Origin: a virus
Reading direction: 5' to 3' (one strand)
DNA: 23,630 nt
Virus record (IMG/VR): IMGVR_UViG_3300007963_000047
Location: 1-23,630 of that record
Shown here one piece after another: positions 39 through 21,500 of the stretch (positions within the stretch are counted from its first letter, which is position 1; each line of letters opens with the position of its first letter). The notes under the pieces were generated by a model. It saw only the letters and a program-made list of their open reading frames with translations. It made no database searches and had not been told where the DNA came from. The translations under genes and the position numbers were made by a program.

Positions 39-473
39 ATGATTTCATCAACCAAACAACGCACTGCCCTTCATGTTCTTTATGAGCGTGCCGGGCAGTG
101 CTGCGAGAAGGCGGAACAGTTGGCGGCTGACATTGAGCCGGTTCTGACCGAGGAGCTCAATCACGTTCTGATCGACGGCGAGCAGATCCACGCTGCGCTC
201 GCTCGCAACTTTGAGGTCCCTCTTGTGACCAGTAATTTTTATCTCACCTCTTTTCATCTGGCGGATGCGGAGAAACTCGTCCGTGCCGCTGCGGTCCTGA
301 CTGAGATCAAACCGCACTATATCGACAAACAAAAACAACAAGATTTATTCACCCGGATTACGACCCTGCGAAAACGCATGACCGAGCTCGAACCTGCGAA
401 AGATAGTTTCGTCAGAGCTCACACTCTGGTCATGCGAGAGCTCGAGTCGAGAACACACAAAGGAAATAAATAA
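39..473 (+). CDS. Hypothetical protein, 144 aa
   Basis: I do not recognise this protein. It is mostly helical-looking and charged, with several Glu/Leu-rich stretches, a Lys/Gln-rich patch near residues 93-101 and a basic C-terminus. No signal peptide or membrane segment is visible. The ATG is preceded by GGAG at 34-37, which is unusually close to the start, so the true initiation site or its strength is uncertain. The stop overlaps the next gene's start (TAATG at 471-475), so it is probably translationally coupled to the recombinase. It contains four GAGCTC hexamers in 435 bases, the densest patch in the window. A role in DNA metabolism or packaging is possible from position only. Confidence 0.7.
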   Translation: MISSTKQRTALHVLYERAGQCCEKAEQLAADIEPVLTEELNHVLIDGEQIHAALARNFEVPLVTSNFYLTSFHLADAEKLVRAAAVLTEIKPHYIDKQKQQDLFTRITTLRKRMTELEPAKDSFVRAHTLVMRELESRTHKGNK

Positions 474-1135
474 TGAACTACGGATATATACGGGTTTCAA
501 CTACCGAACAAATTGAAGGTACATCGCTCGAGACACAACGTCGCCAGATTCTCGGAAATGCCATGACCCATGACCTGACCATAGACCACTGGATAGAGGA
601 TGCGGGAATCAGTGGCGCGATGAAATTCTTTGACAGGCTCGCAGCGCATGGCGTTGAGCTTCAGCCCGGCGACACGATTGTCGTTGCCAAGCTCGACCGC
701 TTTTCACGCGATGCCGCTGATGCATTATCGTCCATTGAAACCATGCGCGAGAATAAAGTTGCCTTGATAATAAACGGTCACGGTGATGTCATGGACGAGA
801 CAAACCTGAGCGGGAGATTGATGCTTGAGGTGATGGCGGTTTTTTCCGGACACGAACGCCGTACTCTAAAAGAGAGACAACGTGTCGGACAGAAGGCAAA
901 ACGTGCGGCTGGCGGCCACATCGGCGGCAGCGCCCCATTTGGTTATGTGGTCGCTGGCAACGGCAAAGCAGCGAAGCTCGTAGAGGATTCGGAAGAACAA
1001 AACATCATCGTGCGTATTCACGAGCTCGCGCAACAGCAGGTATCCCTGCGAAAGATTCAGGGCGTGTTGCGTAGTGAGAGTCTACGCAGCCCGTCGTTGT
1101 CTGTCATTTCACGCATCATTAAAGATGCAGCTTAA
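473..1135 (+). CDS. Serine recombinase (resolvase/invertase family)
   Basis: Serine recombinases cut and rejoin DNA at paired sites through a 5'-phosphoserine intermediate. The N-terminus reads YIRVSTTEQ, with the nucleophile predicted at Ser9 and Arg7 beside it. The second conserved block KLDRFSR lies at residues 73-79, supplying Asp75, Arg76 and Arg79. A long helix with the HERRTLKERQR pattern (127-137) matches the dimerisation helix. GGSAPFGY at 151-158 resembles the linker seen after the catalytic domain in many members, and residues 170-220 look like a small helix-turn-helix DNA-binding domain. At 220 aa it is the size of resolvases and invertases, not of large serine integrases. The start overlaps the upstream stop, with an AAAGGAAA Shine-Dalgarno. 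No recombination site is visible nearby, so inversion, resolution and integration all remain possible. Confidence 0.93.
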   Translation: MNYGYIRVSTTEQIEGTSLETQRRQILGNAMTHDLTIDHWIEDAGISGAMKFFDRLAAHGVELQPGDTIVVAKLDRFSRDAADALSSIETMRENKVALIINGHGDVMDETNLSGRLMLEVMAVFSGHERRTLKERQRVGQKAKRAAGGHIGGSAPFGYVVAGNGKAAKLVEDSEEQNIIVRIHELAQQQVSLRKIQGVLRSESLRSPSLSVISRIIKDAA

Positions 1136-1148
1136 AGAGGAGTAAGCT

Positions 1149-1370
1149 ATGAATATCACTATCAACGAAAAAAGTTATGACATTACCATCCCCGGCGCTA
1201 ATGGAGCTCGCTGGCATAAAGCAATTCGCGAAGCGGTCGAATCGCTTGGTTACGATTGGCAGGAGTCGAAGATATTCATCCCGGACTATGTGGCCGGTGA
1301 GGCTGCTAACGAGCGTGGTCGTTATATGACCAAAAGTGCGGGGCGTACTCAACTCGGGGCGGGGAATTAA
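1149..1370 (+). CDS. Hypothetical small protein, 73 aa
   Basis: Unrecognised. The start has a good Shine-Dalgarno (AGAGGAG, about 1135-1141) and the stop overlaps the next ATG (TAATG at 1368-1372), so it sits in a translationally coupled run. The N-terminus looks like short beta strands (NITINEKSYDITIP), followed by a helix (RWHKAIREAVESLGY) and an Arg/Gly-rich tail. There is no signal peptide or membrane segment. The compact, partly basic make-up would suit a small DNA- or protein-binding factor, but nothing supports a specific function. Confidence 0.7.
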   Translation: MNITINEKSYDITIPGANGARWHKAIREAVESLGYDWQESKIFIPDYVAGEAANERGRYMTKSAGRTQLGAGN

Positions 1371-1708
1371 TGATGAAGACAATCGACTTTGACACTCCCG
1401 AAGAAAAGGAACTCTATAGCAAAATCGGATCTGTGGGCTGGGCTTTGGCAGTCATCGATGGCGAAACCATTAAGGAAGTGCATTCACTATTGGCTCCGTC
1501 AGTTCCTGCAAATGTTTCGATTGAAGAGGAGGCAGAAATTCTCACAGACGCTGCCATTCAATTTGCGAGGGATGCGATGGGCGGAGACGTTTTTTTTGGC
1601 ATGGTTTCCTCCTATCAATTTTGTGACCCGCAGCCTTTTGAACCTGTCATGGCTGCAACGATTGCAAGAACGATAGCAGACAAGCTGGTCGAAGAAGAGT
1701 TTGAATGA
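1370..1708 (+). CDS. Hypothetical acidic protein, 112 aa
   Basis: Unrecognised. The protein is acidic (DFDTPEEKELY at the N-terminus, EEEFE at the C-terminus), with a mixed alpha/beta pattern in between and an Ala-rich helix near the end. Two consecutive ATG codons (1370 and 1373) could both serve as starts, and the first overlaps the upstream stop. The last bases overlap the next small ORF in an ATGA arrangement. No motif allows a functional call. Its place in a run of small genes upstream of the terminase suggests an accessory phage function. Confidence 0.68.
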   Translation: MMKTIDFDTPEEKELYSKIGSVGWALAVIDGETIKEVHSLLAPSVPANVSIEEEAEILTDAAIQFARDAMGGDVFFGMVSSYQFCDPQPFEPVMAATIARTIADKLVEEEFE

Positions 1709-1797
1709 AAATAATCATCGAAATCGACACCGATGAAGATGAAGAAATCATTGAGCTCATAAAGAGACTTGTCTCTCTGTTAGAAAAGGCTGAATAA
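1705..1797 (+). CDS. Possible 30-aa acidic microprotein
   Basis: This short ORF begins in an ATGA overlap with the preceding gene and encodes 30 residues: a beta-like start (KIIIEIDTDEDEE) and then one amphipathic helix (IIELIKRLVSLLEKAE). The overlap and the lack of spare DNA between genes suggest it is translated. It is too short to assign by family. It could help dimerise a partner, since the helix has regularly spaced Ile and Leu. It is moderately likely to be a real gene. Confidence 0.45.
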   Translation: MKIIIEIDTDEDEEIIELIKRLVSLLEKAE

Positions 1798-1809
1798 AAA
1801 GGAAAGTGA

Positions 1810-1962
1810 ATGGCTCCCAACACCCCGATCAAAGATCGTGTTCAGAAAGCACGGCAGAAAATGCGCGATGCCGGATTCAAGCTAATCCAAATATGGGTCC
1901 ACCCCGAAGATGAAAAACAACTCAAAGATTATGCGGACTATCTGAGGAACAGGAGAAAGTAA
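1810..1962 (+). CDS. Small MazE/ribbon-helix-helix-like protein, 50 aa
   Basis: A 50-residue protein with a basic N-terminal helix (DRVQKARQKMRDAGFK), a short strand (LIQIWV) and a second helix (PEDEKQLKDYADYLRNRRK). The pattern of an RxxKxRxxMRxxG helix followed by a xxQIWV strand resembles DUF3018/MazE-like antitoxins and small ribbon-helix-helix DNA-binding proteins. That resemblance is from memory of the family pattern. The stop overlaps the terminase start (TAATG at 1960-1964) and supplies an AGGAGAAAG Shine-Dalgarno for it. No recognisable small terminase exists in the window, so a DNA-binding packaging role or autoregulation is an attractive but unproven idea. No toxin partner is visible. 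Confidence 0.6.
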   Translation: MAPNTPIKDRVQKARQKMRDAGFKLIQIWVHPEDEKQLKDYADYLRNRRK

Positions 1963-3410
1963 TGGACAATGCGGCTTTGATAGAAGCAGAAAGCAGAAAT
2001 CCCTTCATCGGTTTTTTGAATCGTTTTCAAAAGAATCCATCATTGTTTGTCCGAGAATGCCTGGGGGTCGAGCCCGATAAATGGCAGGAAGATTTTCTGG
2101 ATGCGATTGCGGGAGGGCATCGCCGGATTTCAATCCGCAGTGGTCATGGCGTCGGCAAATCGACGGCAGCTTCGTGGGCCATGCTCTGGTATCTGCTCAC
2201 CCGGCACACTGTGAAAATTCTTGTCACTGCACCATCATCCGGCCAACTGTTTGACGGGTTGTTTGCGGAGGCAAAGAGATGGGTGCGGCAAATGCCCTCC
2301 GCCCTGCAACAACTGGTGGATGTGAAAAGCGACCGCATCGAGCTCGCATCTGCCCCGGCTGAATGTTTCATCAGTTTGAAAACCAGTAGGCCGGAATCAC
2401 TCGAGGCGCTAGCAGGAGCTCATGCAGATTTTGTCATGCTGATTGCAGACGAAGCCAGTGGGGTTCTGGAAGGCACATTCGAAGCGAGTGCCGGTTCGAT
2501 GTCCGGGGAGAATGCGGTCACAATCCTGCTCGGCAATCCAACCAGAACGAGTGGTCTGTTTTACGACACACATCATCGGTTGCGGAATGAATGGTGGACT
2601 CGAAAAGTGAGTTGCGTCGATTCGCCCAGAGTGTCTGCAGCCTACATTGCGGAGCTCCAGAGTCGCTATGGTGCGGAGAGCAATGCCTACCGGGTGAGGG
2701 TGCTGGGGGAGTTCGCAAAGTCTGATGAAGACACAGTTGTCAGTCTGGCGACGATTGAAAGCGCCATCGGGAGAGATGTGGCGATGATCCCTGCAGCAAC
2801 AACTATCTGGGGCTTGGACATCGCACGCAAAGGAAATGATGCGAGCGCTCTCTGTAAACGCAAAGGAAATCACATTCTCGAGCCCGTCAGGCGCTGGCGT
2901 GGCCTCGACCTGATGCAACTCACTGGGGCAATCGTTGCGGAGTATGAGGGCCTCGAGCCTGAGAATCGCCCCACAGAAATCTGTGTCGACAGTATCGGCC
3001 TGGGGGCGGGTGTTGTAGATCGGTTACGCGAAATTCTGGATATCCGGGTACATGGCATCAATGTGTCAGAAAGCCCGGCATTAGGAACGACTTATCGCAA
3101 TTTGAGAGCCGAGCTCTATTATAAAGCGAAAGCATGGTTCGAGGGGCTGGATGTTTGCATCCCGGCAGATGAACAGCTTATCAGCGAGCTCTCCATTGTG
3201 CGGTACAAATTTAGCAGCAATGGAAAAATCATTCTGGAAAGTAAAGACGAAATCAAAAAACGGCTGAACAGTGCGAGCTCCCCCGATTGTGCAGATGCCT
3301 TCGTTCTGACTTTTGCCGGGACGGCCTCAAGGCTGGCATCGGGCTCGGCAGCGGGTGCGAACTGGTCAAAGCCCTTAAGGCGTAATTTGCCCCGGATCAA
3401 GCGCAGATAG
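1962..3410 (+). CDS. terL: Terminase large subunit (ATPase and nuclease)
   Basis: This is the motor that pumps DNA into the procapsid and cuts the concatemer. The Walker A loop is GHGVGKST at residues 61-68 (Lys66). The Walker B strand FVMLIADE ends at Asp163-Glu164, giving the catalytic glutamate. LLGNPTRTSG at 189-198 matches the coupling motif of terminases. The C-terminal RNase H-like nuclease is seen as GLDIARKGND (Asp286), EICVDSIGLG (Asp343) and SSPDCADAF (Asp442 and Asp445), the usual acidic metal ligands. At 482 aa it is a normal length. It starts at a TAATG overlap with a strong Shine-Dalgarno in the preceding gene. The small subunit is not identifiable here, so it may be very divergent, be one of the small upstream genes, or lie before the window. 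Confidence 0.97.
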   Translation: MDNAALIEAESRNPFIGFLNRFQKNPSLFVRECLGVEPDKWQEDFLDAIAGGHRRISIRSGHGVGKSTAASWAMLWYLLTRHTVKILVTAPSSGQLFDGLFAEAKRWVRQMPSALQQLVDVKSDRIELASAPAECFISLKTSRPESLEALAGAHADFVMLIADEASGVLEGTFEASAGSMSGENAVTILLGNPTRTSGLFYDTHHRLRNEWWTRKVSCVDSPRVSAAYIAELQSRYGAESNAYRVRVLGEFAKSDEDTVVSLATIESAIGRDVAMIPAATTIWGLDIARKGNDASALCKRKGNHILEPVRRWRGLDLMQLTGAIVAEYEGLEPENRPTEICVDSIGLGAGVVDRLREILDIRVHGINVSESPALGTTYRNLRAELYYKAKAWFEGLDVCIPADEQLISELSIVRYKFSSNGKIILESKDEIKKRLNSASSPDCADAFVLTFAGTASRLASGSAAGANWSKPLRRNLPRIKRR

Positions 3411-3426
3411 CCAAAAACCGACCTCC

Positions 3427-3432: not shown

Positions 3433-3534
3433 CGCCTGTAAGCGATTTAAATGCAGGGGGTAGGGGTTTACTAAGGGTCTTTTTCTACACTGTAAAGCAC
3501 TTCCTCTTTCGCCGCTCTCACATTTCATACACGG

Positions 3535-3556: not shown

Positions 3557-3561
3557 CGTCT

Positions 3562-3687
3562 GTGCCTAAAGTAGGCGGAAAACATTTTTCTTACACCGCC
3601 AAGGGTCGCAAGGCTGCGAAAGCCTATGCGAAGAAAACAGGCAAGAACGTTACCAAGAAAAAACGGGGCAAAAAGAAAGGTGGCTGA
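3562..3687 (+). CDS. Lysine-rich 41-aa peptide upstream of portal
   Basis: A GTG-started ORF encodes 41 residues with 14 Lys and 2 Arg, beginning MPKVGGKHFSYTAKGRKAAK. Short basic peptides with the same pattern (MPKVG-K-F-YT-KG then a Lys-rich tail) occur beside portal or capsid genes in many phages, as I recall them. Their role is not established, and a nucleic-acid-associated or virion-associated function is plausible. A GAGGGGA Shine-Dalgarno lies at 3550-3556, inside a hairpin. The 3' end overlaps the preferred portal start (GTG at 3680), so the two are probably coupled. Confidence 0.72.
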   Translation: MPKVGGKHFSYTAKGRKAAKAYAKKTGKNVTKKKRGKKKGG

Positions 3688-5881
3688 ATACGGGGAGTTA
3701 GTTTCTGATCAGGAGAACATCGAAGAGGAATCTCCGGATCTGGCGAAATTGCAAGCAGCAGTCAGCGCAGAAATCTCTGATGCGGTCGATTATGTCGACA
3801 CGCAACTGAGTCCCAGTCGGGCAGTCGCCATTGATTACTATAAGTCTGAGTTGTTTGGCTCGGAGCAAGACGGTTCGAGCGATTATGTGAGCTCTGATGT
3901 GCGCGACACGATTCTTGGGATGATGCCCAACCTGATGCGAATTTTTGCCGGTGCTGAACGAATTTGTGAATACGTTCCGGCGAGCCCGGAGGACATTGGT
4001 CTTGCGGAGCAAGCGACCGATGTGATCGACTACATTTTCCAGAAACGAAATGACGGATACGGGATTCTGTATTCGACTTTCAAAGATGCGCTGGTCAGCG
4101 GTTTAGGCATCGTGAAATTCTGGCATGAGGAGCAGCGTGACGTAGAGACTTACGAGTTTTCGGGTCTGAGTGAAAACGAGATCATGTTGCTGGCACAAGA
4201 CCCGGATGTGTTGATGCTTGAGCAGAAAATCGAGATCGAAGCCCGGATGGAGGAAGGCGCTGACGGACAACCGATGATGATCGAGCCGCCACAATTCGGG
4301 GCAACGGTCAAACGATTGAAGATGCAACAGCAGTACAACGTCGCGAGTGTACCCCCGGAGGAGTTTCTAATCGCACGCAAGGCGGTAGATTTAGAAACGA
4401 GTAGTGTGGTCGCACATCGCCAAATAAAAACGGTGAGCGAGCTCGTTGCGATGGGTTATGACTTCGAACTGGTTGTACAGTATTCAAGTGTCGATGATTC
4501 CCTCGAACAAAACGAGGAGCGTTTCGCCCGAAACCCGGAGGAAGATTTTTCGATAGCAGACCGACCGGATGACGGAGCTCGCTCTGTCCTCTATTGCGAA
4601 AGTTATATTCGTTTCGATTTAGACGGCGACGGAATTTCGGAGCGATTAAAAGTCTGCACTTTGGGGGGCGATTATTTCATTGTGAACGTGGAGCCGATCG
4701 CGGATTTACCGTTTTCGATTTTTTGTCCTGACCCGGAACCCCACACGATTGTCGGTCTGAGCGAGGCCGACAAAGTCAAAGACATTCAAGAAAGCAAATC
4801 AGAAATCATGCGCGACATGCTCGACTCGCTCGCACAAAGCATTCATCCCAGAACTGCTGTGGTCGAAGGTCAGGCGAATATGGATGATGTGCTATCCAAC
4901 GAAACAGGCGGCATTATCAGAATGCGAGCTCCGGGGATGGTTCAGCCATTTTCTCAACCATTTGTCGGACAGGCTGCATTTCCGATGCTTCAATATCTGG
5001 ACTCTGTGCGTGAAGAACGAAGCGGAGTGTCGAAGGCAAGCATGGGCTTGAATGCCGATGCTTTGCAAAGCGCAACGAGAGCAGCGGTTGCCGCTACGAT
5101 ACAGGGGAGTCAGGCGCGAATTGAATTGATCGCGAGGACGTTTGCAGAAACCGGGATGAAGCGATTGTTCAAGGGGCTGCTGAAAGTGGTCACTGCCCAT
5201 CAGGACATTCCAATGATCGTGCGTTTGCGGAACACATTTGTGGAAGTAGATCCGCGAACTTGGAACGCTGACATGGATGTTGAAATAAACATCGCTCTCG
5301 CCGGAACAACTACTGAGGAGCGAATGCAATCGCTCGGGAACATCGCAGCGAAACAACAGGAAATCATCGGACAAATGGGACCCAATAATCCTATTGTCAA
5401 TTTATCGCAGTACCGGAACACACTTGCAAAAATGGTAGAGCTCTCCGGGTTTAAAGATGCGAGTGCATTTTTCTCAGAGGTCCCTGCTGATTTTGAATTT
5501 CCGGAACCTGCGGAAAATGAGAAACCGAGCCCGGAAGAAATGCTCGCGCAAGTACAGATGGAAAGCATCCGGGCAGATATTGAAAAGAAAGCGGCAGACC
5601 TGCAACTGCAACGAGAAAAAATGTTGCGCGATGATGATCGGCAGCGAGACAAATTGGATGCGGACATTGCATTGAGGGCTGCGGAAATTAAAGCGAAACA
5701 TGGAGCTCAGATTGACACTGCATTGATTCGCGCAGATCTGGAAAGAGACAGAGAAGCGGAGCGCATCCTAGCGCAGGAACGTCAGGCAATGCTTGAGCGA
5801 GCGGTGCAACAGCAGAATCAAGCCATACAGAATCAAGCCATACAGAATCAAGCCATACAGAATCAGGTGCCGCAGGTATGA
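3680..5881 (+). CDS. Portal protein (P22-type)
   Basis: The portal ring sits at one capsid vertex, docks the terminase, and later carries the adaptor and tail. The N-terminal half has the P22-portal pattern of DYVDTQLSPSRAVAIDYY, then SSDVRDTILGMMPNLMRIF, then a long helical/acidic region. DLDGDGISE (residues 313-321) is typical of these portals and not a true EF-hand gene. A long charged coiled-coil-like tail ends in Gln/Asn repeats. I prefer the GTG start at 3680, giving 733 aa. The frame stays open back to an ATG at 3626 (751 aa), but those 18 extra residues merely read the lysine-rich gene in another frame, and neither start has a strong Shine-Dalgarno. The 3' end overlaps the next gene (ATGA at 5878). 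Confidence 0.94.
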   Translation: MAEYGELVSDQENIEEESPDLAKLQAAVSAEISDAVDYVDTQLSPSRAVAIDYYKSELFGSEQDGSSDYVSSDVRDTILGMMPNLMRIFAGAERICEYVPASPEDIGLAEQATDVIDYIFQKRNDGYGILYSTFKDALVSGLGIVKFWHEEQRDVETYEFSGLSENEIMLLAQDPDVLMLEQKIEIEARMEEGADGQPMMIEPPQFGATVKRLKMQQQYNVASVPPEEFLIARKAVDLETSSVVAHRQIKTVSELVAMGYDFELVVQYSSVDDSLEQNEERFARNPEEDFSIADRPDDGARSVLYCESYIRFDLDGDGISERLKVCTLGGDYFIVNVEPIADLPFSIFCPDPEPHTIVGLSEADKVKDIQESKSEIMRDMLDSLAQSIHPRTAVVEGQANMDDVLSNETGGIIRMRAPGMVQPFSQPFVGQAAFPMLQYLDSVREERSGVSKASMGLNADALQSATRAAVAATIQGSQARIELIARTFAETGMKRLFKGLLKVVTAHQDIPMIVRLRNTFVEVDPRTWNADMDVEINIALAGTTTEERMQSLGNIAAKQQEIIGQMGPNNPIVNLSQYRNTLAKMVELSGFKDASAFFSEVPADFEFPEPAENEKPSPEEMLAQVQMESIRADIEKKAADLQLQREKMLRDDDRQRDKLDADIALRAAEIKAKHGAQIDTALIRADLERDREAERILAQERQAMLERAVQQQNQAIQNQAIQNQAIQNQVPQV
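5813..5865 (+). repeat. 15-bp tandem repeat in the portal C-terminus
   Basis: The unit CAGAATCAAGCCATA is repeated exactly at 5813, 5828 and 5843, with a partial fourth copy (CAGAATCA) at 5858. It encodes QNQAI repeats at the portal C-terminus. Because the unit is a multiple of three bases, gain or loss of a copy keeps the frame, so copy number could vary between isolates. Confidence 0.9.
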
Positions 5882-6144
5882 GTTACGAGCGTGAAGTTAT
5901 CGACGGCGAACGAGCTCGAGCTCTGCTTGAAGATGAAACCTTCAAGGCATTGTTTGATGCGGTCGAGAAAGACTACATTCTCGCTTGGCGTCGAACAGAT
6001 CCTTTTGAAACAGAAGGTCGGGAGCGGTTATACATAGCGCTTCACGTTCTCGATCATGTGCGAACACATTTGCGAGTAATGGCTGAAAGCGGCCAACTCG
6101 CAATCGCGCAACTTGAAAAACTGAAGCGCATCAAAGCAGGATGA
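5878..6144 (+). CDS. Conserved-looking 88-aa protein between portal and scaffold
   Basis: Unrecognised in function. The protein is helical and charged (MSYEREVIDGERARALLED, then FDAVEKDYILAWRRTDP, then a long helix to the end), without a membrane segment. Small proteins with this YE-GERAR-LL then W--T-P-D/E layout are often found next to phage portal genes, where they are annotated only as hypothetical. It overlaps the portal stop by four bases (ATGA), which argues for coupled expression and a role in procapsid assembly. Two adjacent GAGCTC hexamers (5912 and 5918) encode an Arg-Ala-Arg-Ala-Leu stretch. Confidence 0.75.
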   Translation: MSYEREVIDGERARALLEDETFKALFDAVEKDYILAWRRTDPFETEGRERLYIALHVLDHVRTHLRVMAESGQLAIAQLEKLKRIKAG

Positions 6145-7201: not shown

Positions 7202-8143
7202 ATGGCTAAGGTTACCAATAGCTTTACCACTTACGACGCGACTGCAGATCGCGAGGATCTGTCAAATTTTATATACAACATCGACCCGTCCGACACGCCG
7301 TTGATGTCTATGATTGGTCGCAGAAATGTCAGCAATGTGACTTTCGATTGGCAAGTTGAAAGCCTCCCTGCTGTAGATACAACCGCACAGGTGGAAGGTT
7401 TCGAGCTCGCTCGAACTGCTTCAACGGCGACCACCCGTGAAAGTAACATGGCTCAGATTTTGAAAATCGATGCTACGGTTACCGGGACTCAGGAGAGCGC
7501 CAATGCCGCTGGCAAGGGCAACGGCGAAATGGCTCATCAGATGGCGATTGCCTCTAAGGCGTTGAAGCGGAATGTCGAAAAAGTCATTTCTTCGGCACAG
7601 GCAAAAAATGCTGGAAACGCGACAACCGCCAGAACAACCGCAGGGCTCGAGTGCTGGATTCAATCCAACAAATCTAGAGGCACGGGCGGTGGCGATGGCA
7701 ATGCTGCACACACAACTGCCCCGACAGACGGGACGCAACGAGCTCTCACAGAGACGATTCTCAAGGCAGTTATCAAGACCTGTTATACGTCCGGTGCTGA
7801 ACCTTCTGTACTGATGGTTGGTCCTACCAACAAGCAAACAGTCTCTGGTTTCACGGGTCGGGCAAGTGCTCAACAAACCATAGCGGCAGATGCGATTCAA
7901 GCGAGTGTCGCAATCTATGCAAGTGACTTCGGTGAGCTCAAAGTCGTTCCGAGCAGATGGGTGCGAGATCGTTCCGCAATGCTGATCGATCCGGAGTTTG
8001 CTGCGACTTCGTTTTACAGACCGTTTCAGCGTAAGCCGATAGCCGATATTGGCGATGCAAAAACGGAAATGATGATCGTCGAATTCGGACTCGAATGTCG
8101 CAATGAAGCGGCAATGGGTTTGATCGCCGACTTGACTACATAG
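7202..8143 (+). CDS. Major capsid protein (DUF5309/SU10-like, HK97 fold)
   Basis: This is the main shell protein. The N-terminus (NSFTTYDATADREDLSNFIY, then PSDTPLMSMIGRR) and the following segments (VTFDWQVESLP, FELARTASTATTRESNMAQI) match the DUF5309 or SU10-type major capsid family, which adopts the HK97 fold. The C-terminal half carries VLMVGPTNKQTVSGFTGRAS, then YASDFGELKVVPSRWVRD and MLIDPEFAATSFYRPF, also typical. At 313 aa it has a usual length. It has the best ribosome site in the region and is followed directly by a strong terminator, as expected for the most abundant virion protein. Confidence 0.93.
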   Translation: MAKVTNSFTTYDATADREDLSNFIYNIDPSDTPLMSMIGRRNVSNVTFDWQVESLPAVDTTAQVEGFELARTASTATTRESNMAQILKIDATVTGTQESANAAGKGNGEMAHQMAIASKALKRNVEKVISSAQAKNAGNATTARTTAGLECWIQSNKSRGTGGGDGNAAHTTAPTDGTQRALTETILKAVIKTCYTSGAEPSVLMVGPTNKQTVSGFTGRASAQQTIAADAIQASVAIYASDFGELKVVPSRWVRDRSAMLIDPEFAATSFYRPFQRKPIADIGDAKTEMMIVEFGLECRNEAAMGLIADLTT

Positions 8144-8172: not shown

Positions 8173-8198
8173 GGGGGAGTGTGAGCTCCCCCCTTTTT
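8173..8198 (+). terminator. Rho-independent terminator after the capsid gene
   Basis: GGGGGAG (8173-8179) pairs perfectly with CTCCCCC (8186-8192) around a six-base loop, and five T follow (8194-8198). This is a textbook intrinsic terminator. It separates the capsid-assembly genes from the tail genes and probably lets only part of the transcription pass on, giving high capsid and lower tail-protein levels. The downstream gene has its own Shine-Dalgarno (AAGGA) just after it. A GAGCTC hexamer lies across the loop and 3' arm. Confidence 0.88.
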
Positions 8199-9531: not shown

Positions 9532-10230
9532 ATGGCAAGCGGAGACTATGGGTTTCTTTATTATGGTCGGGGAAACTACGGCGTCTCGAGCTATCCGGCA
9601 GGTGCTGCGACTGCAGCAACTACGAGCACTGTTGCCTCCTCTGGTATTGCTCTTTTCTCTGGCACGGCGGCTGCGACAACGAATGTCACTTTCACTTCTG
9701 CCGGGAACAGAGTTGCACTAGGAGCAGCAAGCCCAACATCGACAGTTACTGTAAGTGCTGCAGGTGGAATTATCCGATCTGCTTCAGCGGCGGTGGCGAG
9801 CACAAGCTCATTTTCTGCTGCCGGGAATCGCGTTGCACTCGGTGCAGCTAGTGCTACTTCGACTGTTACCGTGACCGCCGCTGGAGGACTTTTGGTTGTA
9901 GGTGCAGCAGCGCTTACCACGACAGCTAGCGTCTCGGCTGCGGGAAACAGAATTCAAAATGCTGCTGCTTCCTTGACGGCGACGAGCTCTGCTTCATTTG
10001 CCGGGGAACGAATTGCAACAGCATCTGCAGTCATTGATATCACAACAGTTGTCCGGGTTTCATGGGTCCCAACACCTGCTCCCGGAGAGACTTGGAATGG
10101 TCAAACCACAGATGCAAAGAGTTGGTCAGAGCAGAGCGCCGATGCGGAAACGTGGACTGAAAAATCAACCGATGGAAAAACATGGATACAACAAACTGGA
10201 AGCAGTATCACATGGGATGAAGCTGCTTGA
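9532..10230 (+). CDS. Repetitive Ala/Ser/Thr-rich tail protein
   Basis: A low-complexity 232-aa protein. Residues about 37-157 form tandem units of about 20 residues, each a short beta-strand pair with AGNR or AGG turns. The AGNR motif recurs every 40 residues, at 57, 97 and 137. The C-terminus (about 181-230) is a different array: five decapeptides with Trp at 188, 198, 208, 218 and 228. The N-terminal YYGRGNYGVSSY motif resembles YGTGNYGASTYG in the gp10-like protein at 12733, suggesting shared assembly contacts. No clear Shine-Dalgarno precedes the ATG, only four bases after the previous stop, so translation likely depends on coupling. A fibrous or surface structural role is inferred. Confidence 0.75.
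   Translation: MASGDYGFLYYGRGNYGVSSYPAGAATAATTSTVASSGIALFSGTAAATTNVTFTSAGNRVALGAASPTSTVTVSAAGGIIRSASAAVASTSSFSAAGNRVALGAASATSTVTVTAAGGLLVVGAAALTTTASVSAAGNRIQNAAASLTATSSASFAGERIATASAVIDITTVVRVSWVPTPAPGETWNGQTTDAKSWSEQSADAETWTEKSTDGKTWIQQTGSSITWDEAA
10078..10221 (+). repeat. Decapeptide (30-bp) repeat with invariant Trp
   Basis: About five consecutive 30-base units encode variants of D-A-x-(S/T)-W-x-(E/Q)-x-(S/T)-x, with Trp recurring exactly every 10 residues. The units differ at the DNA level, so this is an old repeat kept at the protein level. Confidence 0.82.
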
Positions 10231-10242
10231 GGAAATTAAAAA

Positions 10243-11151
10243 ATGGCTGACACAACTACCACTAATTTAAGTATGACTAAACCGGAGGTCGGCGCGAGCG
10301 CTGACACCTGGGGAACCAAAATTAATGGATCGCTCGATACCGCCGATGCAGTTTTTGCAGCCGCTGGGACCGGAACGAGTGTCGGACTTCAAGTCGGCAG
10401 CGGGAAAACACTAGTGGTTGGCGGTACTCAAAAAATATCAACGACTAGCAAAATCGAATTTCGTGACACCGCAATCTATATCAATTCATCAGTCGATGGT
10501 CAGCTAGACATCGTCGCAGATGGCGAGATTCAGGCAGTCGCTCCGATCATCGATTTAGATGCATCCACGGCGGTCACCGTTAGCCATGATTTGAAACTCG
10601 ACAGCGATGCGGCAGTTCTTGGTTTTGGGGTAAACAATGATGTCACTCTGACTCATGTTCATGACGTTGGCGTGCAGTTCAATACGATGCCAATCGTACC
10701 CAACCCGACTTTCAGGGCATATAGAGATAGTTCAGATCAAACGATGTCGCATAACACCGCTACGAAGGTTGAATTGAATGCAGAGAGTTTTGATATTGGC
10801 GGTTATTACGACCACAGTACTAATTATCGATACACGCCATTGGTAGCTGGTTACTATCAGGTCAACGCATCGATTCAAGACATCTCCAATACCGATGTGT
10901 ATGACATCATTATTTACATCCGGAAAAATGGATCGTCTGTTTCTCAGGGGCGACTTCGGTATGTAGGGGCCACCAACGACGATTTATATACATCAGTTGT
11001 TTCGACAAGCGACCTCGTGTTAATGAACGGCTCAACAGACTACCTCGAGGCGTATGCTCAAATAGCCTCAGAAGACTCTTCAGCAGTGAAAGTGAACGAC
11101 AGTGAAGTTGCAACGTTTATGTCAGCTATTTTAGTGAGCCGAACTTCATAG
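10243..11151 (+). CDS. Tail fibre-like protein with C1q-like C-terminus
   Basis: A 302-aa protein. The N-terminus ([20 protein letters not shown], then [15 protein letters not shown]) is a motif common to fibre and structural proteins of marine phages, with NL--TKP-VG-S-DTWG-K-N--LD. The middle is beta-repetitive. The C-terminal about 140 residues ([20 protein letters not shown], then [20 protein letters not shown]) resemble a C1q/TNF-like jelly-roll trimer domain often used as a fibre tip. It may therefore contact the host surface or cap a fibre. Shine-Dalgarno GAGGAA lies at 10229-10234. No chaperone-type or enzymatic motif is visible. Confidence 0.78.
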
Positions 11152-11161
11152 GAGAAAAATA

Positions 11162-11338
11162 ATGTCCACACTTTTTTCAAAGATAAAAACAATTCACCCG
11201 TCCCTGACAGATGCTGATTTCAGTCCAGAAGGAACTATAGCGTTGCAAAACGATTCAGATGGAAAAGGTGATTATATTAAATCGTGGAACCACCCTTCGC
11301 TGGTTAGACCAACCGATGAACAAATTAGAGACGCTTGA
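11162..11338 (+). CDS. XkdW-like small tail protein, 58 aa
   Basis: This ORF has a good Shine-Dalgarno (AGGAG, 11150-11154). Its product has the pattern I-HPSLTDADFSPEGTIALQND then YIKSWNHPSLVRPTDEQI. A DF-----G-I-LQ-D--G-YI--WN---P-PT motif is the hallmark of XkdW-like phage proteins found next to tail fibre genes. Their function is not settled, and a fibre-associated or assembly role is usually assumed. The stop overlaps the next start (TGATG). Confidence 0.68.
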   Translation: MSTLFSKIKTIHPSLTDADFSPEGTIALQNDSDGKGDYIKSWNHPSLVRPTDEQIRDA

Positions 11339-11502
11339 TGGACGACATTGAAAAAGTCAAAACTGCGCTCGACAAACACGAAGCGGAATGTTTGATTCGC
11401 GCTGAATCTTTTGAAGCGAGATTGTCTCGGCTCGAAAAAGCAACTGCGGGGTTGTATCCCTTCATCGCCGCTTGCGTTTTGATTGCGGCGTGGTTGCGCT
11501 GA
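11338..11502 (+). CDS. XhlA-like membrane-anchored protein, 54 aa
   Basis: The product has a charged coiled-coil-like N-terminus (DDIEKVKTALDKHEAECLIR then ARLSRLEKA) and one hydrophobic C-terminal segment (LYPFIAACVLIAAWL). This is the architecture of XhlA-type lysis proteins, which work with a holin and endolysin. Both ends overlap neighbours (TGATG at 11336 and at 11500), placing it in tight translational linkage with the endolysin gene. Assignment rests on architecture and context, not on a diagnostic motif. Confidence 0.6.
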   Translation: MDDIEKVKTALDKHEAECLIRAESFEARLSRLEKATAGLYPFIAACVLIAAWLR

Positions 11503-11864
11503 TGGCTTGGCAATTTTTTACAAAAGAAGAAATGGCTTGTCGTCACTGTGGCGAATGTGACATGGATGAAACTTTCATGGATGACTTGGACTGGCTGCGT
11601 GAAAAATATGGCAATGCTCTTCGCATCACCTCTGGTTTTCGATGCCCTGACCACAACGAAACGGTCAGTAGCACAGGCAGGAACGGCCCCCACACCACAG
11701 GGCGTGCAGCAGACATTTCGATTGAAAGAACGAACGCCTATGAATTGTCAAAAATTATTTTGCGTGGCCCGTTCACAGGCGTTGGTTTTGCACAGAAGGG
11801 CGGTTCGCGTTTTATTCATGTGGACACGCTTCAAGAAAATCGACCAACGATCTGGACGTACTAA
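11502..11864 (+). CDS. Endolysin, M15 family peptidase
   Basis: M15 peptidases cut peptide cross-links in peptidoglycan, using zinc. The 120-aa protein has the motifs RITSGFRCPDHN (41-52), GPHTTGRAADIS (62-73) and FIHVDT (104-109). The zinc ligands are predicted at His64, Asp71 and His106, with Asp108 beside the active site. This matches the M15_3 type. A CRHCGEC cluster at residues 13-19 is common in this group. I chose ATG 11502 because it overlaps the upstream stop (TGATG). The open frame extends back to an ATG at 11472 inside the previous gene, giving ten unlikely extra residues. There is no signal peptide, so release should depend on a holin. Confidence 0.93.
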   Translation: MAWQFFTKEEMACRHCGECDMDETFMDDLDWLREKYGNALRITSGFRCPDHNETVSSTGRNGPHTTGRAADISIERTNAYELSKIILRGPFTGVGFAQKGGSRFIHVDTLQENRPTIWTY

Positions 11865-11865
11865 G

Positions 11866-12171
11866 ATGCCAAAAAAACTACAGAAAGATTCACGTTACGA
11901 AAAACATGATTTGGACGGCGATGGTGTTGTGTCAGATGAAGAACTGGAAAAAGAAAAGTCGATTAGTTTTCTGGAAAAGGCGGACGCCCAACGAAACATG
12001 GCGTGGGTGTCGTTAGGTTTTATGATTTTTTTCAGCACGTTGTTACTGACACCTGCGATTTCTGATTCAAAAATTTCTGCTCTCGGCGACTTGGCCGGAT
12101 TGCTGTTTATATCTCTGGCCGGAATCATCGGTGCGTACATGGGTGTATCAGCTTGGATGTCTCGAAAATGA
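11866..12171 (+). CDS. EF-hand protein with two membrane helices (holin candidate)
   Basis: A 101-aa protein. Residues 15-26 (DLDGDGVVSDEE) form a canonical EF-hand loop with Asp15, Asp17, Asp19, Ser23 and Glu26 as calcium ligands. Two hydrophobic helices follow (about 45-65 and 72-96), and the protein ends in SRK. The start at 11866 follows the endolysin stop by one base. The same frame is open from an ATG at 11548, but that stretch lies over the endolysin in another frame and is not credible. Two helices and a position inside the lysis cassette suggest a holin or holin regulator, possibly sensitive to calcium. The EF-hand is seen in the sequence. The function is inferred. Confidence 0.75.
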   Translation: MPKKLQKDSRYEKHDLDGDGVVSDEELEKEKSISFLEKADAQRNMAWVSLGFMIFFSTLLLTPAISDSKISALGDLAGLLFISLAGIIGAYMGVSAWMSRK

Positions 12172-12335
12172 CCGACGCGATTCATTCGAATACCCATCAG
12201 CCGACTCACTTGAATGCAACTCTTGAGCGAATCAAAGAGACGTTGGAAATTTATCGTGAATCTCAACAGGAATCTCAAAAAGAAAAAGTAGAAAAGACAA
12301 AGCCAACAAATCACGCAGTGGACGAGTTAGTCTGA
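12168..12335 (+). CDS. Small hydrophilic protein of the lysis cassette, 55 aa
   Basis: Unrecognised. The product is hydrophilic and probably one coiled-coil helix (LERIKETLEIYRESQQESQK) with a Lys/Glu-rich tail, without a membrane segment. ATG 12168 overlaps the upstream stop (ATGA). An ATG at 12153 in the same frame adds five residues but lies deeper in the previous gene. The 3' end overlaps the holin start (TGATG). It may help control the neighbouring holins, or could simply be an accessory gene. It has neither the lipobox nor the anchor expected of a spanin. Confidence 0.6.
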   Translation: MTDAIHSNTHQPTHLNATLERIKETLEIYRESQQESQKEKVEKTKPTNHAVDELV

Positions 12336-12733
12336 TGGTATTGGGAATTGCAGAAAGTGTCGTCGGGGTCGCAGGAAAAGTACTCGACAAATTTGTTGAG
12401 GATAAAGACCTCAAAGCCAAACTCGACCACGAATTGAAAACCGCTTTTCACTCTGCGAATTTGGCTCAAATCGAGGTCAACAAACAGGAAGCAGCGCATC
12501 AGAGTTTATTCGTCGCTGGTTGGCGACCGTTCGTCGGATGGGTATGCGGAATTGCACTGGCCTATCATTTTGTTTTAGCCCCATTTCTATTGTTTGTTTT
12601 TTCTGTATACGGGCTTGAGCAAGAACTACCCGAGTTCGATTTCAGCCAACTCTCAACAATTTTAATGGGGATGCTGGGGCTTGGTGGATTACGCACCTAT
12701 GAAAAAATGAAAAAAGTGAGTCGAGAAAAATAA
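12335..12733 (+). CDS. Holin of the GTA 3-TM family
   Basis: Holins make lesions in the inner membrane so that endolysin can reach the cell wall. This 132-aa protein matches the 3-TM holin family first described for gene-transfer-agent release. It has an N-terminal amphipathic region (about 1-20), a charged coiled-coil stretch (21-53), the diagnostic AGWRPFVGWVCGIALAY (61-77) running into a long hydrophobic span to about 92, and a last hydrophobic region around 104-120 before a basic tail (EKMKKVSREK). Both ends overlap neighbours (TGATG at 12333, TAATG at 12731). It is the best holin call in the cassette. Confidence 0.88.
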   Translation: MVLGIAESVVGVAGKVLDKFVEDKDLKAKLDHELKTAFHSANLAQIEVNKQEAAHQSLFVAGWRPFVGWVCGIALAYHFVLAPFLLFVFSVYGLEQELPEFDFSQLSTILMGMLGLGGLRTYEKMKKVSREK

Positions 12734-14223
12734 TGCCTCTGATTCCCCTTGAAATTCCACCGGGTGTTGTAAAGAACGGAACTGCGCTGCAGGTGGCAGG
12801 TCGCTGGTTTGATTCGAATCTCATTCGCTGGCGTGACCAAGTAATGATGCCTGTCGGCGGTTGGTTGAAAATGAACACGAGCGCGATTACCGGGATCTGT
12901 CGCGGACTGATTGCTTTTCGCGACAATGGAAATGCGAACAAATTTATTTGTGCTGGAACGAATTCGAAACTTTACGTCTGGAACGACAGCGGGACCATCT
13001 ACGACATCACCCCATCGGGTTTCACGACCGGGCGAACAGATGCTATTTATGGTTTAGGCTATGGGACCGGCAATTACGGAGCGAGCACCTACGGGACTGC
13101 TCGCGCAGGAAGTGGACAGGTTTTGGACGCCGCAACGTGGAGCTTGGATACTTGGGGTGAATATCTGGTTGGCGTTGCACCACACTACGGCAGAATCGTC
13201 GAGTGGCAGCTAAATACGGGCTCTGTGGCCGCAAACGTGTCAAATGCACCTTATCCATCCTTGGGCGTTCTAGTGACGCCTGAGCGCCATCTGATGGCCT
13301 TGGGTGCTGCAAGTAACAATCGGAAGGTTGCCTGGAGCGATCAGGAAGACAATACAGTGTGGGCTGCAGGAGCAACAAACACTGCCGGGGCGATTGAGCT
13401 CGAAACAACTGGGACCATTCGAGCAGGTGTCCGGGTGCGTGGCGAAATTTTAATTGTCACTGACGTCGACGCTCATGTTATGACTTATCTAGGCCCTCCT
13501 CTGATTTACAATCGGCAAAAGTTGGGGAGCGCCTGTGGGTTGGTCGGGCCGAATGCAATCGCCACTGCAGAAGGTTTTGCGGTTTGGATGGGAAAAGATG
13601 ATTTTCATGTTTACGACGGCACTGTCAAGAGTCTCCCCTGTGACGTCAGGGATTTCGTTTTTGGCGACATCAATCTAATTCAAGGTTCCAAAATTTATGC
13701 GGGTGTGAATTCCGAGTTCGATGAAATCTGGTTTTTCTATCCCACTGCGGCAAGCGATGAAAATGACCGCTATGTCTGTTGGAACTATAAAGAAAATTAT
13801 TGGTCGATTGGTTCTTTGTCCCGCACCGCTTGGGTTGACTCCGGTGCGTTCACAGATCCTACCGCCACTGATGCTTCTGGATTTTTGTACTCGCAGGAAA
13901 GCGGTTGGACCAATGCCGGTGCTGCATTAACGACGACCCGGTATGTCGAGACGGGCGGTGTTAGCGTTGCTCAGGGAGACAACATTGTCCGGGGAAGACA
14001 AGTGATTTCAGACGAAGCAGTGACAGGCCAAGCCCAAATAAAATTCAAAACACGGTTCACCCCAAACGGGACGGAAACTGAGCACGGCCCTTACACGTTA
14101 GAAAATTATACGGATGTCCGTTTTTCGGGAAGACAATTTGCAATGCGAATTGAAGGGCGTGTTGATGACGATTGGCGGGTAGGCACTTTGCGTCTAGATG
14201 CAAAAACAGGGGGTCGTCGGTGA
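12733..14223 (+). CDS. Tail hub/stabilisation protein (P22 gp10-like)
   Basis: In P22-like phages gp10 plugs below the adaptor and helps retain packaged DNA. This 496-aa protein starts IPLEIPPGVVKNGTALQVAG then RWFDSNLIRWRDQVMMPVGG, a recognisable opening for the marine-phage version. Repeated beta-blade-like segments follow (FICAGTNSKLYVWN, then HLMALGAASNNRKVAWSDQED, GFAVWMGKDDFHVYDG, DEIWFFYPTAASDENDRYVCWN), consistent with a beta-propeller. The end is beta-rich (RFSGRQFAMRIEG). YGTGNYGASTYG near residue 115 resembles the N-terminus of the repetitive protein at 9532. The start is a TAATG overlap with the holin. Confidence 0.83.
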   Translation: MPLIPLEIPPGVVKNGTALQVAGRWFDSNLIRWRDQVMMPVGGWLKMNTSAITGICRGLIAFRDNGNANKFICAGTNSKLYVWNDSGTIYDITPSGFTTGRTDAIYGLGYGTGNYGASTYGTARAGSGQVLDAATWSLDTWGEYLVGVAPHYGRIVEWQLNTGSVAANVSNAPYPSLGVLVTPERHLMALGAASNNRKVAWSDQEDNTVWAAGATNTAGAIELETTGTIRAGVRVRGEILIVTDVDAHVMTYLGPPLIYNRQKLGSACGLVGPNAIATAEGFAVWMGKDDFHVYDGTVKSLPCDVRDFVFGDINLIQGSKIYAGVNSEFDEIWFFYPTAASDENDRYVCWNYKENYWSIGSLSRTAWVDSGAFTDPTATDASGFLYSQESGWTNAGAALTTTRYVETGGVSVAQGDNIVRGRQVISDEAVTGQAQIKFKTRFTPNGTETEHGPYTLENYTDVRFSGRQFAMRIEGRVDDDWRVGTLRLDAKTGGRR

Positions 14224-16693: not shown

Positions 16694-16696
16694 GAA

Positions 16697-17682: not shown

Positions 17683-19680
17683 ATGGCGACATACACAGAG
17701 GGAGATGTTGTTGAAAATTCAAAGGGTGAGTTAGTCCAACTGACCTTTGATGCAAACGATAAAGCATTGTGGGTTCCTTATTCAGAACCAGATACTGAAG
17801 ATCTTCGTTTGGCTGCTCAAGGCTTGACTCTCGGTGCAGCCGACGAAGCAGAAGCATTTGTTCGCAATCCTTTGAGTGGAGTTTTGAACCTGTTTGGGGA
17901 CGAAGCGGCAGGAGCTCCGTATCGGCAAACACATTCCGAAATCAACAAACAACTACAACAAGCAAAAGAAAATTATCCGGTTCGATCATTGCTAACAGAA
18001 ACAGGGGGAGCTGTTGTTCCAGCGATAGCATCGACTCTGTTAGGCGGCGCTACAGCCGGTCCTGTTGTTGCAACGCAGGGATCTAATTTAGCGAGGCTAG
18101 GCAGGTATTTGATGGACGCTGGCAAATCCGGAATAGGAGCCGGGGTCTACTCTTTCAATACGGGCGAGGGAGATTTTTCTGATCGATTGGAAAATGTACC
18201 AACTGACGCCGCAACGGGATTCGCGACTGCGGCTGCGTTGAACAAACCGCTAGATTTAATAAGTCGGGGACTTTCTAATTTTGCGAGATGGGGACAGGAA
18301 AAATTAGGGCGAGCGAGTAGAGCCGTGGAACAGGAAGTGCAAAAGATCGCAGCCAATGCGGGAATGTCTTTTGAAGAAATCGTCGAGCGAGTCTCTCGCG
18401 GAGAAATTTTTCCGGACATGAGTGACACAGTCAGAAGTGTGCTTCGTTCTTATCGCGCAAGCACAGAGGGAGGGCAAACTGCCATCGATGAAACTTTGAA
18501 ACGACGTTCAACCGATAGTTCGCGTGAAGCGTTTGACACGCTGCAACGAAATCTCGCGCCAGAAACTACGAGCTCCTCAAATCTTTTAAAAATTTACAAT
18601 CAAAAAACGCAAACAAACAAGGACGCAGCGAGCAACGAATATAAAAAAATCTGGCGTTCTAATCCTGATCCCGTTGACGGGGAAATCACAGGTGGTGTTT
18701 TGCAAATGCTCGCACGCGATACGGAAATGGCAAAGGAAGCAGCTAGGTTGGTTAAGGCCGAAACGAAGAAATCTTCTTTTTTCAAAGTGGACAAAGAGGG
18801 AACGATTGAACTTTTGCGTAATCCAACTTTACAAGAACTTGAGCAGGTAAGACGGGCTTTCCAAGATTCAGCCAACGCTGCTTTTCAAAAAAACAGAGGA
18901 CAGTTGGGCGACACACTCAAGGGAATTGAAGATGAATTGCGGAAAACCATCGATGATTTTTCTCCCGCACTAAAAGCAACCCGGCAGAAATGGTATTTGC
19001 TCAACGAGGGGAAAAGAGCTCATGATGCGGGAAGCAAAGCAATCGATAAAGCGCCGGATGAAATTGAAATTCTTTTTGAGAAATTCTCTGAAAAGGGTGA
19101 AGAGGTAATCGAGGCTTTCAGAATGGGGTTTGCATCTGCAATCAAAAAGAAAAGAGGTACTCGACAGGCAGGTGGGTATATCGCCGACTTAGCGGACACC
19201 GATAGAAACAGATCAAAAGTTTTAGAAATTATTTTCCCGGAAGATGCACTTCAAGAAACAATCGACAAAGTGACTCGCGCAGCGGCACAACGGACAACCG
19301 CCAATACCGTTATTGGCGGCAGTCAGTCTGCTGAAACGATTTTGAAGGCAGGACGTTTAGGGGACAACCCGATTCGCGCCAACGAAGCTGCTGGCGCTTT
19401 GTTTGGCAACCCGGTAGATATTGCAAACGTCACAAGAAAATTCGTAGGTGAATGGCGAAAGGATTTAAGTCAGGGCGAAGCTGATCAAGTCGTCAAAATT
19501 TTACTTTCGGAAGATCCACAGTTTCTCAGAAAAGCACTCACCGACGAAAATGGATTAGTCGCTTTGCAACGAAATGTAGATCGGCTCGTTAGTATTTTGC
19601 AAGGCGCAAGAACACAAGCCGCATCAGTGGCTGGTCCAGCAGCTTTAGATCGCGCTGGTCTTTTGGAGGATAATCAATAA
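17683..19680 (+). CDS. Large internal virion (ejection) protein candidate, 665 aa
   Basis: The N-terminus (DTEDLRLAAQGLTLGAADEA then EAFVRNP) and the Gly/Ala/Val-rich segments about 104-155 (TGGAVVPAIASTLLGGATAG, GIGAGVYSFNTGEGDF) resemble the opening of phage internal virion proteins with membrane-active helices. Long charged helices follow (about 200-500), including PTLQELEQVRRAFQDSANAAF and LRKTIDDFSPALKATRQKWY, another pattern common in these proteins. AAGGAG is the Shine-Dalgarno. The stop overlaps the next start (TAATG). In length and texture it corresponds to the large ejection proteins of T7- and P22-like phages. I see no transglycosylase motif. Confidence 0.75.
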   Translation: MATYTEGDVVENSKGELVQLTFDANDKALWVPYSEPDTEDLRLAAQGLTLGAADEAEAFVRNPLSGVLNLFGDEAAGAPYRQTHSEINKQLQQAKENYPVRSLLTETGGAVVPAIASTLLGGATAGPVVATQGSNLARLGRYLMDAGKSGIGAGVYSFNTGEGDFSDRLENVPTDAATGFATAAALNKPLDLISRGLSNFARWGQEKLGRASRAVEQEVQKIAANAGMSFEEIVERVSRGEIFPDMSDTVRSVLRSYRASTEGGQTAIDETLKRRSTDSSREAFDTLQRNLAPETTSSSNLLKIYNQKTQTNKDAASNEYKKIWRSNPDPVDGEITGGVLQMLARDTEMAKEAARLVKAETKKSSFFKVDKEGTIELLRNPTLQELEQVRRAFQDSANAAFQKNRGQLGDTLKGIEDELRKTIDDFSPALKATRQKWYLLNEGKRAHDAGSKAIDKAPDEIEILFEKFSEKGEEVIEAFRMGFASAIKKKRGTRQAGGYIADLADTDRNRSKVLEIIFPEDALQETIDKVTRAAAQRTTANTVIGGSQSAETILKAGRLGDNPIRANEAAGALFGNPVDIANVTRKFVGEWRKDLSQGEADQVVKILLSEDPQFLRKALTDENGLVALQRNVDRLVSILQGARTQAASVAGPAALDRAGLLEDNQ

Positions 19681-21500
19681 TGGCTCTGCGACAACCTTCG
19701 AGGATGGGAGCAAACAATCCGGAGCTCTCTGCCCATCAAAAATTTGCACGATTCATTTCGGGGAATCCATCTGACTATGTACACCCTGATTTCTGGTCTG
19801 GTCTAGCAAAGGAGGCAACATTGGGTTTGGCCGGATTGCCGGGGGACCTTGGATTTTTGATAGGCGGAATGGCCGCACCCGCCGTTATGGAGATGCGGGA
19901 AAATTTTCGTGAAGGTAGGCCGCTTACGCAAGGTCTGTTGCAGCACGTTGGCGACCCAACGGACTATCACTACACGAGTGATCGAATCGCAAAAGATGCA
20001 GGGATTCCTTTTAAAAACACGCCACAAGAAATGCGAGGTCGATTTTACGGAGGACTATTCGATGTTCTCGCATTAGCGAATGCGCTGCGACTTCAACGGA
20101 ATTTTTTTGACCCGGATGTTGAGGTGTCAGATCCAACACGACAGGGAGGCGCTGTTGCCATTGCCGGTAAGCCTAAAACTGAAAATAGATTACCAAGAGG
20201 TATGGGGCAAAAATTAAAAGAGGCAAAGGCAGAGCTTCGGTCTGCCAACGAAGAGTTCAAGATCTTTGCAAACAGAAGGAAAAAAAATCCGGATGCACCC
20301 CTAGGGCGTGCAGAGCAAGCAGCAAAAAACAGATTATCATCCGCTCGCAAAAATGTCGCAGCAATACAAAGATTGCGGGAAATTGAAACCACAGTTGCTA
20401 ACCCACAACGGGTCGCATATCCCGGCGTCTACAAAGATGCAGTCGAGCTTGCACGAGAAGCAGAAAAAAGAGTTGAGCCCGAAGACCCGGCGCTCAAAGA
20501 ATTGTTTGGCGTGACTCGCGCAGATCTATTCGACATTCAACAAGAGAGAGGAGTCGGTCCTGTTTCATCCTTGATCAACAGACCACAAAAAAGTCGAGGG
20601 TCTGAAGCTGCTCGCAATGTCATGAATCCAGAAAACGAAGCGCGGTTAATCGAGAATTTGGCAACAGCTAAAACCGAAGCTCCTCGTTTGTTTTCCAGTA
20701 TGGCACCTTGGTATGTCATGGACCCTGCTTTCAACCGGATGTTGGAACTGCTCGGCCCGGACGAAGCTCAGAGACTTTATGTGCAGATGAATACGCTGAC
20801 GGGTATGGCTTCTCCGGGTTCAGATGTCTTGACTGAAATCAGAAGAGGAACTGCCGCAAGTAAATTAGCAGAGGAAGGGCGCTTCGATGAATTCGTGCAA
20901 CTTGCCGGAGTTCCTTTTCACAAACGAAAAAATTATCCGGACGACCTCGCGCAAGTGCCAGGCCATATGTATCACTCGACAGCACATGCGAAACCGATGC
21001 AGGAATTTTTGAACACGGGAGAAATTGTGACTGATGCAGTGAAGGTCCCGAGCTATATTGAAGCGAGCGGGATTCCGAATGTGGAGGGAATTCCTTTCCA
21101 GAGCGGGACACCTGTCGGCGATGCACATTTCATTCGTTCTCTAGGATTAGCAGATACCCGTACTTCAAAAGATTTTGCAAAAAGTATTTCCGGTCCCGAG
21201 CTCAGAACCATTGAAGATTGGTGGAGCAATATCGCACGTTCGCAAGGGTTGGAGCCGGTCCCTGCACAGGCTGTGAACTGGGGATTATATTCACCGCAAA
21301 CAGGTGTTGAAACAATGATAGGGGCTGGCAAATTAGAGCTCCTCTCAAAAAGGATAAAAGAGCGTGCGGCACAACTCGGAATGTCCCCGGAAGAATTAAG
21401 GGACCTTGTATTGACCGGAAAGGAATTTGCGACAATGACTCCGCTTGTGGCAGGTGGATTGCTCGGGGCTGAACAACTGTATCAGCCGGAGTCAATTTAA
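19680..21500 (+). CDS. Ejection-module protein with an unidentified C-terminal domain, 606 aa
   Basis: The N-terminal about 130 residues have membrane-active character (LAKEATLGLAGLPGDLGFLI then GGMAAPAV). Residues 175-260 are a basic charged coiled coil. The C-terminal about 290 residues look like a separate folded domain, with APWYVMDPAFNRMLELLG, GHMYHSTAHAKPMQEFLNTG, VGDAHFIRSLGLADTRT, PVPAQAVNWGLYSPQTGVET. The order WY, then K--eFl-tG, D-H--RslG, P-QA--W recalls a phage domain (DUF7178-like, with a helix-hairpin-helix glycosylase flavour), but this is a pattern recollection, not an identification. It lies between the large ejection protein and the GNAT/ART protein, with coupled starts on both sides. 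It may also enter the host. Confidence 0.68.
   Translation: MALRQPSRMGANNPELSAHQKFARFISGNPSDYVHPDFWSGLAKEATLGLAGLPGDLGFLIGGMAAPAVMEMRENFREGRPLTQGLLQHVGDPTDYHYTSDRIAKDAGIPFKNTPQEMRGRFYGGLFDVLALANALRLQRNFFDPDVEVSDPTRQGGAVAIAGKPKTENRLPRGMGQKLKEAKAELRSANEEFKIFANRRKKNPDAPLGRAEQAAKNRLSSARKNVAAIQRLREIETTVANPQRVAYPGVYKDAVELAREAEKRVEPEDPALKELFGVTRADLFDIQQERGVGPVSSLINRPQKSRGSEAARNVMNPENEARLIENLATAKTEAPRLFSSMAPWYVMDPAFNRMLELLGPDEAQRLYVQMNTLTGMASPGSDVLTEIRRGTAASKLAEEGRFDEFVQLAGVPFHKRKNYPDDLAQVPGHMYHSTAHAKPMQEFLNTGEIVTDAVKVPSYIEASGIPNVEGIPFQSGTPVGDAHFIRSLGLADTRTSKDFAKSISGPELRTIEDWWSNIARSQGLEPVPAQAVNWGLYSPQTGVETMIGAGKLELLSKRIKERAAQLGMSPEELRDLVLTGKEFATMTPLVAGGLLGAEQLYQPESI

Follow-up and report, generated by a model that had tools for sequence, protein, structure and literature searches.

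Several-fold excess of the exact palindrome GAGCTC in a predicted podovirus whose relatives rarely carry it

The hexamer palindrome GAGCTC is six to seven times more frequent than its genes and base composition would lead one to expect in the window, by which is meant the whole stretch of 23,630 bases analysed here, which spans the entire viral record (G000). An exact-match recount gave 41 copies, the first starting at 153 and the last at 21336, in agreement with the number and places given in an initial annotation of this DNA, but the other GAGCTN hexamers, put there at about nine, came to 12 (4 + 2 + 6). Base composition predicts 5.3 copies and Markov models of orders 1, 2 and 3 predict 6.3, 7.6 and 10.0 respectively, so that low-order sequence statistics, which the annotation had named as a possible source of about 40 copies, yield only 5-10. 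An order-4 model gives 29, but this is an unfair null because GAGCT and AGCTC are mostly copies of GAGCTC themselves. The strongest null is a synonymous-codon shuffle, which preserves every protein as well as codon usage, and in 1000 shuffles the genes held 6.0 copies on average (sd 2.4) and never more than 16, compared with 38 observed. Divided by codon frame the observed copies number 21/13/4 against 3.5/1.6/1.0 in the shuffles, an enrichment of 6.1, 8.3 and 3.9 fold, and a further three copies lie in the approximately 2 kb outside genes. The split originally given (22/14/4 plus one intergenic copy) therefore needs correction in its exact figures, whilst the excess in all frames, about 4-8 fold, stands; together with the intergenic copies and the shuffle it bears out the view that the excess acts on DNA and not on protein, base composition not being the cause.

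The sites are scattered through the window in unrelated sequence contexts and both halves are enriched (6.6 and 5.2 fold). The uneven density that had been pointed out is real in so far as there are empty stretches, but as a separate signal it was rejected, since 26 copies were found against 3.9 expected in the first 10 kb and 12 against 2.3 in the rest; the unevenness mostly reflects amino-acid and codon content, the excess being 5-7 fold in both halves. Were the sites placed uniformly, the largest gap (3412 bases) would not stand out significantly (p = 0.066). The excess also continues beyond the window, a point on which the annotation had made its claim depend: an independent contig (L005), which is 99.9% identical to window positions 1-3224 and reaches 2229 bases farther upstream, carries four further copies in that extension. 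The palindrome is thus several-fold in excess in all frames and spread over the window and 2.2 kb upstream, as HIP-like palindromes are.

Judged by its gene content the phage is a podovirus, that is, a short-tailed virus with a bacterial host. The window encodes a terminase large subunit, portal, scaffold and major capsid proteins, virion proteins, a DNA-ejection-like protein and an M15 peptidase, in an order that matches those of MW202879 and Sinorhizobium phage phiM5, and the upstream extension of L005 adds genes for the small terminase and a DpdA-like protein (Table 1). Together the window and this extension cover roughly one half of a genome of 36-44 kb, the replication half lying outside both. 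A 610-residue protein encoded at 21501-23333, with weak similarity to GNAT acetyltransferases and to ADP-ribosyltransferases (polyvalent protein), is probably an injected virion protein. A search for relatives with a 665-residue protein as the query gave no match.

Table 1. Positions of GAGCTC and of the genes and regions discussed; coordinates are those of the window except where L005 is named
Feature	Position	Strand	Remarks
GAGCTC field	153..21341	.	exact matches; synonymous shuffle 38 vs 6.0 in genes
GAGCTC starts, part 1	153, 384, 415, 438, 1022, 1204, 1753, 2340, 2416, 2652, 3111, 3186, 3275, 3889		
GAGCTC starts, part 2	4439, 4575, 4926, 5438, 5703, 5912, 5918, 6767, 7403, 7740, 7934, 8183, 8851, 8887		
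GAGCTC starts, part 3	9984, 13396, 14758, 15338, 16341, 16557, 17162, 17912, 18570, 19016, 19722, 21198, 21336		
Densest cluster	384..443	.	3 GAGCTC in 60 bases
Adjoining GAGCTC pair	5912..5923	.	
GAGCTC beyond annotated genes	1204..1209	.	
GAGCTC beyond annotated genes	1753..1758	.	
GAGCTC beyond annotated genes	8183..8188	.	GC-rich stretch, then T run
GAGCTC-free stretch	9990..13395	.	part 10222-10665 has 78% DNA identity to L062, a relative without GAGCTC
Serine recombinase (Resolvase domain)	473..1135	+	Pfam PF00239, PHROG 95/125; one GAGCTC
Terminase large subunit	1962..3410	+	phrog_2; six GAGCTC; sites compared with relatives
Portal protein	3626..5881	+	phrog_1216; six GAGCTC
Major capsid protein	7202..8143	+	phrog_1328; three GAGCTC
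DpdA-like gene	L005 1267-1962		phrog_887 (queuine tRNA-ribosyltransferase); lies after the small terminase gene and before the first gene of the window

The signal is the exact hexamer. Its one-base neighbours total 98 against 103 expected, and among them only GAGCTG/CAGCTC is depleted (2 against 15), as is CAGCTG, two steps away (0 against 9.7). The flanks show no preference apart from a marginal one for C at -1. Very-short-patch repair was considered and is unsupported, the T-for-C neighbours of GAGCTC not being depleted. When the remaining 63 hexamer palindromes were pooled they proved to be depleted (196 against 316 expected from the shuffle). The window holds a second, weaker contrast, in which CCSGG is raised about 2-fold (76 against 40) and CCWGG lowered about 6-fold (6 against 35), and GANTC occurs at normal frequency, unlike in the alphaproteobacterial phage phiM5.

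The relatives of this phage do not share the excess. Three complete relatives have no GAGCTC where 10-15 copies are expected, the hexamer is absent from 119 of 160 related viral loci, which pooled hold 250 copies against 435 expected, and at the places of the window's own sites relatives seldom carry it. L062, the phage that k-mer profile puts nearest and that shares the 78%-identical stretch, has none in 19 kb. The residues beneath the sites are more conserved than a residue-matched background (0.60 versus 0.47; p about 0.005 toward conservation), which indicates that the sites came without visible cost to the proteins, and this conservation together with the lack of sites in relatives implies that this lineage acquired the sites, largely through synonymous change. 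By these comparisons GAGCTC is a lineage-private, highly iterated palindrome of this phage. When the collection was scanned for GAGCTC clusters, many contigs of high GC came up. In two of them (L288 1-5831 and L240 1529-9082) genes for giant collagen-like GAQ-repeat proteins alone produce dense clusters; the others that were inspected are unlike the window in k-mer profile and were not taken as evidence.

Several relatives have iterated palindromes of their own. In L155 (IMGVR_UViG_3300020281_000127), whose capsid protein is 56% identical, RGATCY numbers 132 against 31 in genes (also counted as 167 against 21) and CCWGG 128 against about 21; in the same genome GANTC occurs once against 80 expected and CATG not at all against 54. 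In L088 there are 29 CAGCTG against 9.6 and 115 CCWGG against 26. The clearest instance is the complete genome of phiM5 (MF074189, 1-44005), in which TGWCA occurs 423 times against 62 expected, a 6.8-fold excess that is even over 44 kb, whilst GANTC is wholly absent (0 against 197) and RGATCY likewise (0 against 36). Other avoidances were seen in Phage C72C1 (OQ984150), with no GATC against 115 and two GCWGC against 123 in 35 kb, and in Microcystis phage MJing1 (OQ540923; GC 0.71), with no GANTC against 174; from its sequence MJing1 looks like an alphaproteobacterial phage and its recorded host may be wrong.

Loss is the usual fate of restriction-type palindromes in phages, and that one should have been kept and multiplied several-fold implies that something acts in its favour. 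The reading tentatively favoured here, at somewhat less than an even chance, is that GAGCTC is recognised by a sequence-specific DNA-modifying enzyme, most probably a methyltransferase, whose gene would lie in the host or in the half of the phage genome beyond the window and L005. Modification would shield the sites from restriction and would also benefit the phage, as a mark or as protection, and synonymous changes creating GAGCTC would be retained whereas the majority of other restriction-type palindromes disappeared. This reading is preferred because of the exact six-base specificity, the avoidance of other palindromes and the occurrence of relatives with RGATCY, CCWGG and CAGCTG, and the excess in all frames and the conservation of the underlying residues also count towards it. 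Type II restriction-modification enzymes recognise sites of this format, six exact bases with no preference in the flanks. Direct reading of some marine Caudovirales genomes has shown cytosine methylation at GAGCTC (PMC9516812), and in cyanobacteria replacement palindromes accompany matching methyltransferases (Elhai, PMC4390886). The methyltransferase that the initial annotation had proposed to look for did not appear in the half of the genome covered: PF00145 has no match in the window or L005, and PF01555, searched for in L005, has none there. Also against the modification reading, the complete genome of phiM5, with its strongly iterated TGWCA, has no match to PF00145 or PF01555, and MW202711 and C72C1, which do carry a PF00145 methylase, have no comparable iterated hexamer. 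Moreover, protection alone accounts for the tolerance of GAGCTC and not for its excess.

The main rival, possible if unlikely, is that a phage protein engaged in packaging, replication, recombination or coating of DNA binds GAGCTC as an unmodified, phage-private label, by a logic comparable to that of the self-recognition signals known as Chi sites and DNA uptake sequences. That relatives bear differing motifs is in keeping with this, as is the case of phiM5, with an even TGWCA excess, no methylase of either family and a host in which a 50 kb stretch of the replicon pSymB holds about half the expected number (27 against 54). A plain binding site should however tolerate near matches, and the neighbours of GAGCTC are not enriched; nor was a candidate binding protein found. 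The wider proposition that phiM5/LUZ24-like podoviruses each carry a private iterated palindrome, which the phage machinery reads as self against a motif-poor host, and that lineages switch motifs and lose most other palindromes, is distinctly doubtful. It is very improbable that the DpdA-like enzyme of 7-deazaguanine DNA modification encoded just upstream acts on GAGCTC: a protein matching phrog_887 is indeed encoded in L005, 3' of the gene for the small terminase, and enzymes of this kind modify the DNA of phages and block its restriction (PMC6884629), but an excess should then accompany every close homologue, and L215, which encodes an 86%-identical protein, has no GAGCTC in 4.4 kb where this phage's density would give about 7-8. 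In addition, about 30% of G carries the modification in the known phages of this type, far above the capacity of a rare hexamer (PMC6884629). The copy in L215 adjoins unrelated genes. Virtually no credit can be given to chance, codon or dipeptide preference or tandem repetition as the source; 21 of the 41 sites do encode Glu-Leu, but the synonymous shuffle refutes such causes, frames 1 and 2 and noncoding DNA are also in excess, and the dispersal of the sites in unrelated contexts speaks against a tandem repeat.

The initial annotation had also suggested that the excess mirrors the genome of a host with a HIP1-like GAGCTC signature, and this is now rather unlikely. HIP-type palindromes do occur in bacteria (PMC4390886), and a host that matches the GAGCTC phage may lie outside the sampled genomes. 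A sweep was made of about 730 bacterial genomes (Gammaproteobacteria, Alphaproteobacteria, the class of an Opitutae genome and assorted others), in which GAGCTC was counted against the reversed palindrome CTCGAG and stretches of the better genomes were modelled. None had a comparable excess over this control; high counts were met only where CTCGAG was equally common, or proved on inspection to be about 2-fold. One candidate host (G718) was discarded, its high count being about 1.9-fold over expectation at 65% GC, and none of forty further test stretches was above about 2.5-fold on an adequate count. The absence of GAGCTC from L062, the phage closest in k-mer profile, is a further difficulty. 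For phiM5, the only relative whose host is known, the signature idea fails, since the poverty of TGWCA in 50 kb of pSymB implies that the phiM5 excess is not a host signature, albeit on one comparison with part of one replicon. A host signature is accordingly weakened as the explanation for the GAGCTC phage.

A literature search found no direct precedent for an excess of GAGCTC, and none of the literature covered, the original phiM5 paper not being part of it, describes the TGWCA excess of phiM5. Among the nearest known cases is that of the subcluster B3 mycobacteriophages, in which GATC/GGATCC is over-represented genome-wide, more than 4 times, but not in sister subclusters, for reasons that are unexplained (PMC4841201). 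As there, a restriction-type palindrome is in excess in one phage group and absent from relatives, here from all three complete genomes and most of the related loci; the motif, phages and host are different, and the excess in the GAGCTC phage is stronger (6-7 fold). HIP1 (GCGATCGC) and the palindromes that replace it in cyanobacteria, where lineages exchange one iterated palindrome for another (PMC4390886), are likewise exact, extend across coding frames and have the format of methyltransferase sites. HIP1 is however chromosomal, whereas the present motif is GAGCTC, is carried by a phage and has no cognate methyltransferase in the window or L005. L005 resembles phages with the 7-deazaguanine system (PMC6884629) in having a DpdA-like gene beside those for the terminase, but a close DpdA homologue (L215) comes without the excess. 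Closest in kinship is phiM5, a podovirus with the same structural genes (terminase 51% and portal 44% identical) and one strongly iterated palindrome; it differs in its motif and in the avoidance of GANTC, and its complete genome is without either methylase. The iterated palindromes thus vary among related phages, the effect in phiM5 being even denser and the bias of its host opposite. A genome-wide palindrome excess confined to a phage group is therefore already known, though unexplained, and the GAGCTC phage adds another case; phiM5, having a known and cultivated host, makes the pattern first seen in the B3 mycobacteriophages testable in a laboratory phage.
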